Of a DNA stretch of 64,000 nucleotides, positions 23,438-30,766 are shown piece by piece. The DNA is taken from assembly GCF_000717055.1 (NCBI RefSeq), contig NZ_JNXI01000004.1, positions 62,001-126,000 on the forward strand, written 5' to 3'. The notes beneath the pieces are model-generated. The model was not told where the DNA came from, ran no database searches, and worked only from the letters and a program-made list of their open reading frames with translations. Position 1 is the first letter of the stretch, and every line of letters begins with the position of its first letter. This DNA is from Streptomyces iakyrus. GTDB taxonomy: Bacteria; Actinomycetota; Actinomycetes; Streptomycetales; Streptomycetaceae. The position numbers and the translations under genes were made by a program.

Positions 23438-24196
23438 TCAGCCGGCGACCAGTTCCCGCACCTGGCGGGGCGCCACCGGCTCCTCGACGCGCGAGGTCCG
23501 GTACAGCCACAGCACATCACGCCCGAACGACCAGACCAGCAGGCCCAGGGCCAGGGCGGCCACGCCGAAGTTGCCCGCGTACGGCAGCAGACCGGCGCCC
23601 GCGACCAGCAGGAGCACGCCCTGGAGGGCGGCGACCGTCTTGCGGGCGGTGCTCGGCGGGAGCGCGGCGGTCAGCCAGGGCCACACCCGCGCGGCGGCGA
23701 CGAAGACGTACCGCATGCCGCCGATCAGCAGTACCCACGGGCCCAGTTGCATCGACACGTACACGCTCAGCACCAGGATCAGGAACGCGTCGACCTCCAT
23801 GTCGAAGCGCGCGCCCAGCGGCGACGACGTGCCGGTACGGCGGGCGACCTTGCCGTCGACGCCGTCGAGGATCAGCGCCACCGCCGTCAGACCGACGAGC
23901 AGCGACACGGGCGGTGAGCTCTGGAAGGAGTCGGCGACCAGGGCCGTGACCCCGCCGACGAGGGTGGCCCGGCCGAGGGTGACGCGGTTGGCCGCGCCGA
24001 ACGAGCGCAGCCGCGAGCGGTGCAGGGCCCGCGAGAGCACCGCCCAGGTGGCGATCGCGAACGCGAGGCCGGTCAGCCAGCCCGCCGGACCCATCCCGAT
24101 CGCCGTGCCGATCAGGGCCAGCAGCAGCACCTGCACTCCCGCCCCCAGGGCGGTCTCCTGCTGGAGCCTCGCGTCGTACGTGTTGTTCAGGGCCAC
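23438..24196 (-). CDS. CDP-alcohol phosphatidyltransferase family membrane protein
   Basis: Start at the GTG at 24196 with GGAGGG upstream; 252 residues. About six membrane helices surround the CDP-OH-P motif D-x2-DG-x2-AR-x8-G-x3-D-x3-D, seen as DGVDGKVAR, then G and FDMEVD near residues 110-136, so the metal-binding aspartates are intact. The family moves a phospho-alcohol from CDP onto a second alcohol, or the reverse, at the inner membrane. It is divergent from the dehydrogenase that opens the pterin-type cluster and is likely part of it, which would give the product a lipid or polyol-phosphate link. Confidence 0.87.
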
Positions 24197-24304
24197 CGAA
24201 CACCCTCCGGCCGTGTGACAGAGTCGATCAACGCCGCTACCTTGTGCGCGGCCTGTGCACCCCTCGGTACGCAAGCAGCTTCCCGATCGTTCAGGAGGAC
24301 TTCG

Positions 24305-25285
24305 ATGAAGCACACCGCACGGTCGTTCTGGATCGACTCGCCTGGGCGAGGCGCCATCCGGGACGTCACCCTGCCGGCGCCCGGCGAGGGCGAGGTGCTG
24401 GTCCGCACGCTGTTCTCCGGCGTGAGCCGCGGCACCGAGACGCTCGTCTTCCGCGGCGGCGTGCCCGCCAGCCAGCACACCGCCATGCGCGCGCCGTTCC
24501 AGGAAGGCGACTTCCCGGGCCCGGTCAAGTACGGCTACCTCAACGTCGGCGTGGTGGAGGAAGGACCCCGGGAACTCGCCGGCCGCACCGTCTTCTGCCT
24601 CTACCCGCACCAGACGCGCTACGTCGTACCGGCCACCGCGGTCACCCCCGTCCCGGACACCGTGCCCGCCGAACGGGCCGTGCTCGCCGGGACCGTGGAG
24701 ACCGCCGTCAACGCCCTGTGGGACGCCGCGCCCCTGGTCGGCGACCGGATCGCCGTGGTCGGCGGCGGCATGGTCGGCTGCTCGGTGGCCGCCCTCCTCG
24801 CCCGGTTCCCCGGCGTCCGCGTCCAGCTGGTCGACGCCGACCCGTCCCGCGCGAAGACCGCCGAGGCGCTCGGAGTCGGCTTCGCCACCCCCGAGGACGC
24901 CGACGGGGACCGCGACCTCGTCGTGCACGCCAGTGCCACGGAAGCGGGCCTCGCCAGGTCCCTGGAACTCCTCACCGCCGAGGGGACCGTCCTCGAACTC
25001 AGCTGGTACGGCGACCGGCAGGTCAGCCTCCCGCTCGGTGAGGCCTTCCACTCCCGGCGGCTCGTCATCCGCAGCAGCCAGGTCGGCACCGTCTCCCCGG
25101 CCCGCCCCAACCGCACCTACGCCGACCGGCTCGCGGTCGCCCTGGACCTGCTCGCCGACCCCGCGCTCGACGCGCTCGTCACCGGCGAGTCCCCCTTCCA
25201 GGACCTGCCTGACGTGCTGCCCAGGCTGGTCTCCGGCGAGGTCCCCGCGCTGTGCCACCGCGTCCGTTACGACGAGAGCGATTGA
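24305..25285 (+). CDS. MDR-superfamily (zinc-type) alcohol dehydrogenase, catalytic zinc motif not apparent
   Basis: Start at the ATG at 24305 with AGGAGG at 24295-24300; 326 residues. The C-terminal half has the Rossmann motif [15 protein letters not shown] and ends its beta strand with Asp (QLVDADPSR), favouring NAD. The N-terminal half follows the MDR plan ([19 protein letters not shown]), but the GHE motif and the first catalytic Cys of zinc alcohol dehydrogenases are not seen, so it may be zinc-independent. It is the first rightward gene of the pterin-type cluster; a sugar or side-chain oxidation is a fair guess. Confidence 0.85.
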
Positions 25286-25455
25286 CGCATCGGCTGACGA
25301 TTCGTTCCATCCGGTACGAGTTTCGCCACGACAAGAGCGCCTGACCTGAGAAAAGACGTACGGACGGCTGAACAGGGGAAGGCAACGAGCCGTACTACTC
25401 GGCATCCCCGGCACCAGAGCGGGGAACAGACGCGCCGCACCTGGAGGGTCGTCCG

Positions 25456-29460: not shown

Positions 29461-30065
29461 CCGGACATGCCGAGGGTGAGCAGATGACGCCGGTCGTCAG
29501 CGACGAAATCGGAAGTCTCATAACCGGGACGGAGCATTTCGGGATGAGCGTGCAGAAGGACGGAGGTCTCGATTTCCCCCGCGTGCATGTCGGTGAGCAG
29601 CGAGGTGACCACACCCGCCCGCTCGCGCGCCGCCTCCCAGTCCTCCGCGGCCGGGAAGAGCGCCATCCGCTCGCCCCGCGCGGAGGACTCCTGAACCACG
29701 TTGCCCAGCACGTAGTTGCCGCCGTGCCCGTTGACCACCACCAGGGCGTCGACCCCGGACCGGCGCAGCGACGCCGCAATGTCCCGCACCACCGCATGAA
29801 GGGTCACCGACGAGATGCTGACGGTCCCCGGCCAGGCCGCGTGCTCGTGCGAGCACGAGATCGTCACCGGAGGAAGGAGGTGCACCGGGTACGCGCCGGC
29901 TATCTCCCGCGCGACGGCACAGGCGACGAGCGTGTCGGTCGCCAGCGGGAGGTACGGACCGTGCTGTTCGAAGCTCCCCACGGGAAGCACCGCGACCTGC
30001 CGTGAGACACCGGCGCCCCGCGTCCGTACGTCTTCCGTGGTGTCCGCCGGCACCAGATCACTCAT
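29337..30065 (-). CDS. Creatininase-family amidohydrolase, candidate FAPy deformylase (ArfB-like)
   Basis: A 242-residue protein with the creatininase metal ligands in place: Glu33 and His35 in GSFEQHG, Asp44 in ATDT, His114 in NGHGGN and Glu164 in HAGEIETS. Creatininase-fold ArfB in archaea removes the formyl group from the FAPy pyrimidine made from GTP. Here the gene is divergent from a RibA whose Met120 predicts release of exactly that formylated compound, so FAPy deformylase is the best guess. Mycofactocin MftE-like peptidase or creatininase are alternatives, but no mycofactocin genes are present. Its 3' end overlaps the membrane-protein gene. Confidence 0.85.
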   Translation of the reverse strand: MSDLVPADTTEDVRTRGAGVSRQVAVLPVGSFEQHGPYLPLATDTLVACAVAREIAGAYPVHLLPPVTISCSHEHAAWPGTVSISSVTLHAVVRDIAASLRRSGVDALVVVNGHGGNYVLGNVVQESSARGERMALFPAAEDWEAARERAGVVTSLLTDMHAGEIETSVLLHAHPEMLRPGYETSDFVADDRRHLLTLGMSGYTDSGVIGRPSLGSAEKGKELLASLADSFGAYFSMLTSDA

Positions 30066-30106
30066 AACGTCACGGCCTTTCGTCTCTGCTTAGGAACTCG
30101 AGAATC

Positions 30107-30766
30107 ATGACAGACAACATTGGCGTACTCGGCAAGAAGGCACCCCAGCGGACCGGCGTGGAACGCGTCGTGAATGCCCCCTTGCCCACCGTGTACGGGA
30201 AATTCCAGGCGATCGGCTACATGGACCACGACCGCGGCGACGAACAGGTCGCGCTGGTCTACGGCGAGATCGGCACGGACGACGTCCTCATCCGGCTGCA
30301 CTCGGAGTGCCTGACGGGCGACGCTTTCGGCTCCCAGCACTGCGAGTGCGGCGACCAGCTCGACGCCGCCCTGCGCGCGGTCGTCGCCGAGGGCGCGGGC
30401 GTCGTGGTCTACCTCAGAGGGCATGAAGGCCGCGGCATAGGCCTGCTCGCCAAGCTGCGCGCGATGGCCCTGCAGGCGGAGGGGCTCGACACCGTCGAGG
30501 CCAACCTTGCCCTGGGCCTGCCGGTCGACGCCCGTGACTACGGTGTCGCCGCCCGGATCCTGGAGGACCTCGGCGTGCGGTCGGTGCGCCTGATGTCCAA
30601 CAACCCGCGCAAGCGCGAGGCGTTGGTGGACCACGGCATCGAGGTCGCCGAGCAGGTCCCGCTGCTGATCCCGCCGTGCGAGAACAACATCACCTACCTG
30701 CGCACCAAGCGGGAGCGCCTCGACCATCACCTGCCGCACCTGGACGCGGTGGTCAGCTCCTCCTGA
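30107..30766 (+). CDS. ribA: GTP cyclohydrolase II homologue with Met120 (FAPy-forming type)
   Basis: A 219-residue monofunctional GCH II. Zinc ligands Cys68, Cys79 and Cys81 lie in HSECLTGDAFGSQHCECG, the Arg/Glu active region is LRGHEGRGIGLL and the C-terminus has NNPRKREAL. At the position of E. coli Tyr105 (RAYALQ) it has Met120 (RAMALQ). In S. coelicolor SCO6655 this same Met120 was reported to stop the reaction at the formylated pyrimidine FAPy. It is therefore probably not the riboflavin enzyme, which would be encoded elsewhere with ribB/ribH. It faces the creatininase-like gene across 41 bp. Confidence 0.92.
   Translation: MTDNIGVLGKKAPQRTGVERVVNAPLPTVYGKFQAIGYMDHDRGDEQVALVYGEIGTDDVLIRLHSECLTGDAFGSQHCECGDQLDAALRAVVAEGAGVVVYLRGHEGRGIGLLAKLRAMALQAEGLDTVEANLALGLPVDARDYGVAARILEDLGVRSVRLMSNNPRKREALVDHGIEVAEQVPLLIPPCENNITYLRTKRERLDHHLPHLDAVVSSS

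Follow-up and report, generated by a model that had tools for sequence, protein, structure and literature searches.

A gene cluster at positions 23438-30766 of a 64,000-nucleotide stretch of Streptomyces iakyrus DNA (contig NZ_JNXI01000004.1, positions 62,001 to 126,000, hereafter the window; genome size 9.1 Mb) is predicted to direct the biosynthesis and export of a lipid-linked, glycosylated and methylated GTP derivative. From its gene families and their distribution across genomes, we give this reading slightly better than even chances. All eight genes named in the original prediction were found with Pfam and NCBIfam profiles: RibA (GTP cyclohydrolase II, GCH II), a creatininase-family hydrolase, a T-fold protein resembling 6-pyruvoyltetrahydropterin synthase (PTPS), a medium-chain dehydrogenase (MDR), a family 4 glycosyltransferase (GT4), a methyltransferase, a CDP-alcohol phosphatidyltransferase and a flippase-like protein. 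The set is kept together in 140 neighbourhoods despite differing gene order, and the creatininase gene accompanies every cluster RibA that lacks tyrosine at a switch position and none that has it. The list of parts was incomplete, as a RibD_C reductase and an LtaS-like transferase had been missed. The central idea of that prediction emerges strengthened, and its interpretation overall appears partly supported.

Results

Co-conservation of the cluster

The PTPS-like gene (25456..25854, + strand; PF01242, 81.5 bits, cut-off 22.4) anchors the comparison. Its 140 neighbourhoods comprise 56 class-genome loci, 80 named-genome loci and 4 loci from a distant actinobacterial family, f58. The class-genome loci come from 58 places in 57 of 394 class genomes, with the window itself and a contig fragment (G074) excluded, and the named-genome loci are the best 80 of at least 587 confirmed places. 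The sample is strongly biased toward Streptomyces, the two large sets possibly share species, and some loci are truncated at the edge of a contig. With presence called by tblastn (E <= 1e-6), the MDR gene was found in 140 of 140 neighbourhoods, GT4 in 139, the flippase in 126, the CDP-alcohol enzyme in 124, the methyltransferase in 120, RibA in 114 and the creatininase in 88. The MDR gene usually lies immediately upstream of the PTPS-like gene. Because the order and orientation of the cluster genes otherwise vary among families, their association looks like a functional grouping rather than mere synteny.

The PTPS-like gene is also present in proteobacterial plasmid records, at about 51-60% identity. 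Across seven such plasmid regions (Thiodictyon, Methylosinus, Neorhizobium, Rhodobacteraceae SC52, Peteryoungia, Palleronia and Agrobacterium), the MDR and methyltransferase genes are present in all seven, GT4 and a reductase annotated as 'RibD family' in six, RibA and the CDP-alcohol enzyme in three, and the flippase in two. A Microbacterium plasmid region holds the full set except RibA and creatininase, and an Arthrobacter plasmid region has MDR, PTPS and GT4 only. A search of phage records for the PTPS-like gene gave no match.

Several plasmid and genome records held further observations. A Streptomyces anthocyanicus plasmid carries a lone PTPS-like gene (L230:10001-10426) with the rest of the cluster absent. 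One record, titled as a Burkholderiaceae metagenome-assembled genome (L103), contains an actinomycete-like cluster, with 72% identity to the actinomycete sequence that heads the query alignment; mis-binning and transfer are both possible. The glucan-synthesis gene mdoH borders the cluster in Methylosinus (L222:7079-8881) and Neorhizobium (L223:7098-9011). A cytochrome b561 gene stands next to the reductase in three proteobacterial clusters (L221:12528-13085, L225:13055-13582 and L227:13011-13544), which may hint at a redox-active product.

The RibA switch residue and its creatininase partner

The window RibA (30107..30766, + strand) matches PF00925 (GTP_cyclohydro2) at 225.5 bits and TIGR00505 at 227.9 bits, above the cut-off of 205.85. 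At least 98% of 115 sequences share C68, C79 and C81, which we take to be the zinc cysteines. Alignment placed Met120 opposite Tyr105 of E. coli GCH II, as had been proposed. This residue matters in light of Spoonamore et al. 2006, who reportedly described S. coelicolor SCO6655 as a GCH II with Met as its switch residue that forms 2-amino-5-formylamino-6-ribosylamino-4(3H)-pyrimidinone (FAPy). Both other RibA copies in the S. iakyrus genome carry Tyr. In eight of the cluster-bearing genomes, 13 of 13 non-cluster RibA copies read have Tyr. Among the 114 RibA-bearing neighbourhoods, the switch residue is Tyr in 26, Met in 67, His in 13, Leu in 6 and Gln in 2.

All 88 neighbourhoods with a non-Tyr RibA have the creatininase gene, and none of the 26 with a Tyr RibA does. 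The gene lies inside the stretch at 87 of the 88 non-Tyr loci; at the remaining one (L039) the copy is just outside, about 14 kb from the PTPS-like gene. Three plasmid-borne cluster RibAs have Tyr, and none of these has a creatininase. In the window, the two genes are divergent and separated by 41 bp (30065/30107). On an MDR tree of 94 of the 140 rows (Streptomyces thinned; 68 with RibA), one change in the Tyr state and one in the creatininase divide the rows identically. A RibA tree of 83 rows, with the switch column left in, likewise has a single Tyr loss among five residue changes in all. Many independent origins of the RibA-creatininase link are ruled out by these two trees.

Losses within the non-Tyr clade provide a further view of this association. 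Five lineages inside the clade lack a non-Tyr RibA, not counting L128 and L147, whose loci run off their contigs. The genomes of L040/L066, L050, L165 and L181 were searched and held no creatininase homologue above 40% identity, and their RibAs all carry Tyr. Sciscionella (L121) keeps a creatininase gene with an inner stretch missing and an end that reads differently, so that it looks damaged. Lineages without both the non-Tyr RibA and the creatininase still retain the remaining cluster genes. This tracking fits the behaviour expected of a FAPy deformylase serving that RibA. Retention of the rest of the cluster after loss of the pair suggests that the feedstock is more likely 2,5-diamino-6-ribosylamino-4(3H)-pyrimidinone (APy) than FAPy. 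APy is an ordinary riboflavin intermediate that is also made by the housekeeping RibA. The FAPy-based route first proposed thus kept its switch residue and its creatininase link, but the pair would give APy, and FAPy itself seems unlikely to be a special building block.

Identity of the creatininase-family protein

The proposed FAPy deformylase (29337..30065, - strand) matches PF02633 at 209.1 bits, and the 3' end of its gene overlaps that of the flippase gene tail to tail (29337-29460). At least 98% of 89 sequences share E33, H35, D44, H114 and E164, presumably the metal ligands. The protein had been likened to the archaeal deformylase ArfB, a comparison that the family model did not support: it scores 36.2 bits against the ArfB model NF033501, below the cut-off of 180. 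Its nearest profile is MftE (TIGR03964), at 129.2 bits, also below the cut-off, here 172. Four genomes (G003, G767, G775 and G790) contain a true MftE (302-359 bits) together with a second, window-like protein (125-140 bits). We disfavour its identity as MftE because of the sub-cut-off score and the separate true MftE in relatives. What survives of the original assignment is the deformylase role, for which the match to non-Tyr RibA speaks; the profile places the protein nearer MftE than ArfB.

Creatininase homologues were also surveyed on plasmids, where the matches listed (40 of 286 records) include 11 places with at least 50% identity. Two of these 11 are in records that also have a PTPS-like gene and RibA close by (NZ_CP023408 and NZ_CP108665). 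Another six were opened, and apart from a fragment in L243 no RibA was found within 8-10 kb of them. A Streptomyces coelicoflavus plasmid (L243:7815-8833) has the creatininase gene with fragments matching the flippase and RibA, apparently a cluster remnant.

An additional reductase

Open reading frames from 39 of the 140 neighbourhoods were clustered to find further conserved genes, and a RibD_C reductase gene, absent from the window cluster, was recovered. All four cluster reductases scanned (L042, L058, L146 and L186) are without a deaminase domain. The gene is present in 26 of 26 neighbourhoods with a Tyr RibA, 13 of 26 without RibA and 7 of 88 with a non-Tyr RibA, as well as in 7 of 9 non-Streptomyces plasmid regions. 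The best equivalog model for the L042 reductase is the archaeal APy reductase ArfC (TIGR01508; 121.7 bits, below the cut-off of 186.45). Fusions of a Tyr RibA to a RibD_C reductase lie inside the cluster at L058:11208-12566 and L060:13112-15091. The closest S. iakyrus relative is on contig C38, where it adjoins a Tyr RibA and is 55% identical to the L036 reductase.

Reductases of this kind (L187 type) follow the cluster at the genome level. They were found in 47 of 57 class genomes with the PTPS-like gene versus 49 of 337 without it (n=394; kinship ignored). Among 40 genomes of the same genus, the counts were 16 of 20 versus 6 of 20, and the four exceptions are exactly the genomes with a different in-cluster reductase, about 29% identical to the L187-type protein (L062-L065). 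Where the cluster has no reductase of its own, an L187-type protein is thus present elsewhere in 16 of 16 genomes, versus 6 of the 20 that lack the PTPS-like gene (Fisher p = 1.3e-5, kinship ignored). These counts suggest that the reductase step is needed and that either of two proteins, only distantly related to each other, seems to perform it.

The lipid-linked end

The CDP-alcohol phosphatidyltransferase (23438..24196, - strand; PF01066, 50.5 bits) has an uncertain start, at 24196 or 24223. At least 98% of 125 sequences share D111, D114, G115, A118, R119, G128, D132 and D136, which make up what we take to be the family's DxxDGxxAR...GxxxDxxxD motif. The flippase-like membrane protein (28099..29460, + strand) matches PF03706 (LPG_synthase_TM) at 109.6 bits.

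A third membrane component came from Peteryoungia, where it is annotated as 'sulfatase'. Both phyla have homologues with 31.6-57.7% identity, which occur in 32 of the other 149 neighbourhoods (the 140 plus the plasmid regions). Neither Pfam nor NCBIfam gave a match for the Peteryoungia protein at E <= 0.001. An AlphaFold2 model of the L036 homologue has a mean pLDDT of 65.8; most values in its soluble domain reach 80-97, though parts score lower, and the membrane part stays below 50. Foldseek searches with this model returned LtaP and GacH first, then an alkaline-phosphatase-superfamily protein and LtaS; for LtaP, GacH and LtaS the TM-scores to target were 0.43-0.53. A likeness to LtaS, LtaP and GacH would lie in the modelled fold of the soluble domain. 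Sequence identity among these hits is 12-15%. The protein also differs from them in being sometimes fused to the CDP-alcohol enzyme, as in the single open frames at L103:14251-16749 and L154:6727-10200. LtaS itself uses a phosphatidyl-linked head group. S. iakyrus has two unlinked homologues, 60 and 54% identical to the L062 protein. The presence of a CDP-alcohol enzyme, a flippase and an LtaS-like transferase suggests that a head group would be put on a phosphatidyl carrier, flipped and passed on.

The PTPS-like protein and other cluster genes

In S. coelicolor, the orthologue of the PTPS-like protein is SCO6650 (PDB 3d7j, 8.1e-81), whose structure was deposited as that of an uncharacterised protein. 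We take the roles of the catalytic Cys and His, zinc-His and pocket positions of the PTPS-like protein from known PTPS and QueD enzymes. Among 57 aligned sequences, Ala occupies the Cys position in all 57 and the third zinc-His position in 56, Tyr occupies the putative catalytic-His site in 54, and two of the zinc-His residues are kept in all 57. Invariant in all sequences are A13-H14-S15, F21-G22-P23-A24, H28-G29, N70-L71-D72, E85 and E120. A relative in family f58 (L186) has the HGH motif and still lacks the Cys. The score against the QueD profile is 36.2 bits, below the cut-off of 89.25. Since the pocket residues are strictly kept while the catalytic positions are replaced, the protein reads not as a decaying QueD but as a T-fold enzyme or binding protein of its own, under constraint. 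GTP cyclohydrolase I (GCH I) is also a T-fold enzyme.

The BchC-like MDR (24305..25285, + strand) takes its name from its best NCBIfam model, BchC, at 49.6 bits (cut-off 291); its Pfam matches are mostly below threshold, and relatives are annotated as 'zinc-binding alcohol dehydrogenase'. GT4 (25959..27056, + strand; an alternative upstream start at 25851 is possible) matches PF00534 (Glycos_transf_1) at 101 bits. The class I S-adenosylmethionine-dependent methyltransferase (27053..28102, + strand) matches PF13649 (Methyltransf_25) at 27.7 bits, cut-off 27. Two saccharopine-dehydrogenase-like genes lie downstream of RibA (30911-33119); they were set aside as cluster members, being present in only 31 and 30 of the 140 neighbourhoods.

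FolE matches above the cut-off were found in 8 of 8 genomes searched, which rules out the cluster as a replacement for GCH I in folate synthesis. S. iakyrus has a second GCH I gene (G000:C21:95453-95971), on a different contig from the copy near folB. In four f58 genomes (L183-L186), the sole folB copy lies beside a reductase-MDR-PTPS-GT4 core, which may be plain housekeeping. L186 also has a PF01553 acyltransferase gene, with a homologue in L183.

Discussion

A proposed pathway

We propose that RibA-M120 would open GTP to FAPy 5'-phosphate and that the creatininase-family protein would strip the formyl group to give APy; elsewhere, a Tyr RibA alone would do both. A RibD_C reductase would then reduce the ribosyl side chain of APy in the manner of ArfC, a step that in S. 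iakyrus is probably performed by the unlinked protein on contig C38. The MDR and then the PTPS-like protein would act on the resulting 2-amino-4-oxo compound, where closure to a dihydropterin is speculative. GT4 and the methyltransferase would decorate the product. Judging from protein families and fusions, the CDP-alcohol enzyme would add a phosphatidyl group, the flippase would turn the product outward and the LtaS-like membrane transferase would move the head group on. Where an open pyrimidine was first predicted, the pathway may end in a pterin instead.

A bolder version of this pathway, which we put forward tentatively and consider rather unlikely as a whole, is that the cluster is a split, redox-driven counterpart of GCH I, making a new class of pterin phospholipid or pterin-bearing envelope compound common to actinomycetes and proteobacteria. 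RibA, with or without the creatininase, would supply APy. The reductase and the MDR, through C1' reduction and C2' oxidation, would replace the Amadori rearrangement of GCH I, and the PTPS-like protein would, speculatively, close the ring to neopterin phosphate. Glycosylation, methylation, phosphatidyl linkage, flipping and transfer outside would follow. Given FolE in all eight genomes searched, this product would not be for folate.

Several observations weigh against the proposed pathway. As read from the trees, the loss of Tyr and the gain of the creatininase are a single evolutionary event, without exceptions. In the six plasmid regions opened, creatininase homologues (50-86% identity) have no intact RibA within 8-10 kb, and these RibA-free genes count against a strict coupling of the two. 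The PTPS-like protein is without known catalytic residues, so that its role is a guess, and the MDR has no close solved relative. The window cluster has neither a reductase nor an LtaS-like gene, and both are assumed to act unlinked. The unlinked S. iakyrus reductase carries a deaminase domain and may serve riboflavin instead. Four genomes with the PTPS-like gene (G002, G281, G352 and G362) have no reductase at the locus and no L187-type reductase in the genome; two of these loci are cut by contig ends, and the genome-wide search covered L187-type reductases. No reductase match was found in the L223 and L229 plasmid regions either.

Alternative readings

Could the end compound instead be an open-ring glycoside? 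A ribityl- or ribosyl-diaminopyrimidine glycoside, similar in kind to the plant pyrimidine glucosides vicine and convicine, is a variant that we regard as quite possible, at about one chance in three. The PTPS-like protein, lacking the catalytic Cys and a full zinc site, would only bind or shield the pyrimidine; its anchor residues would accommodate a pterin and a 2-amino-4-oxo pyrimidine equally well. ArfC-like reduction would remove the C1' aldehyde required for direct pterin closure. The strictly kept T-fold pocket and the MDR in every neighbourhood suggest side-chain or ring chemistry instead, and the sole folB copy beside the f58 clusters provides a weak pterin link. The creatininase is also open to another interpretation, namely that it is a peptidase or another amidohydrolase of the pathway and that the product retains the formyl group of FAPy. 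Its nearest profile, MftE, is that of a peptidase, homologues occur away from RibA, and the association with RibA arose once. However, true MftE and a window-like protein coexist in four genomes, the creatininase disappears together with the non-Tyr RibA from clusters that are otherwise retained, and Tyr-RibA clusters, expected to give APy directly, are without it. We consider this reading improbable.

More improbable still is a reading in which RibA and the creatininase form a backup source for riboflavin or F420 synthesis and are mere neighbours of an unrelated glycolipid operon. The pair would indeed yield an ordinary riboflavin intermediate, and the creatininase-family protein BrbF is required for riboflavin in S. 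meliloti (PMC9478397). But S. iakyrus has two further RibA copies, both with Tyr, RibA is present in 114 of 140 neighbourhoods, and RibA-reductase fusions lie inside the clusters L058 and L060. In addition, PMC2853524 gives an anticorrelation (-0.61) between SCO6655 expression and the predicted flux of its riboflavin-metabolism reaction. Finally, many plasmid records annotate the PTPS-like protein as 6-carboxytetrahydropterin synthase, as if it were a QueD-type enzyme and the product a 7-deazapurine. The QueD score and the replaced catalytic positions disfavour a queuosine or 7-deazapurine route, and no gene named radical SAM was present in the plasmid regions opened, so we give this reading very little credence.

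Relation to known systems

Six window genes in the same order fit the numbering of the S. coelicolor locus SCO6650-SCO6655, and the window RibA carries the SCO6655 switch residue. By gene order, SCO6652 is presumably the methyltransferase and SCO6654 the creatininase. The earlier studies of SCO6655 (2006) and SCO6650 (2008) reportedly treated single proteins; our analysis differs in following the gene set through many taxa and in adding the reductase, the LtaS-like partner and the link to the creatininase. In the archaeal ArfA-ArfB-ArfC route, which begins riboflavin and F420 synthesis, FAPy is formed, deformylated by a creatininase-fold protein and reduced by a RibD_C protein. The cluster is proposed to use the same three-step logic, but with RibA in place of the unrelated ArfA, with a creatininase well below the ArfB cut-off, and toward a different end. 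Glycosylated pterins of cyanobacteria are another parallel, although their pterin is made via GCH I and we know of no lipid-transfer genes for them. In these compounds, a glycosyltransferase acts on a GTP-derived pterin, and the sugar of cyanopterin is methylated (PMC3546692).

A closer functional precedent than ArfB, as judged from its published description, is BrbF (SMc02977) of Sinorhizobium meliloti, a bacterial creatininase-family FAPy formamidase whose FAPy source, BrbG, is given as unknown in PMC9478397. BrbF differs in serving riboflavin, and its conserved neighbours are MarR and CobW genes (PMC9478397). For the S. coelicolor genes, two articles list SCO6655 as a GTP cyclohydrolase II (PMC2853524) and give SCO6652 transcript values of 0.8, 4.3 and 4.1 across a comparison of mycelial stages (PMC3610822). 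An assigned product of the cluster was not found in the literature searched, which covered few subscription journals.

Altogether, our work offers a testable gene set for a metabolite hinted at by two individually studied S. coelicolor proteins. The rule that a non-Tyr RibA goes with a creatininase-family deformylase could also help to find BrbG, which PMC9478397 describes as the missing FAPy-making enzyme; a non-Tyr RibA would be a candidate for BrbG. Should the product prove to be a pterin or pyrimidine linked to a lipid, bacteria of two phyla would share a novel type of envelope compound whose genes also travel on plasmids.

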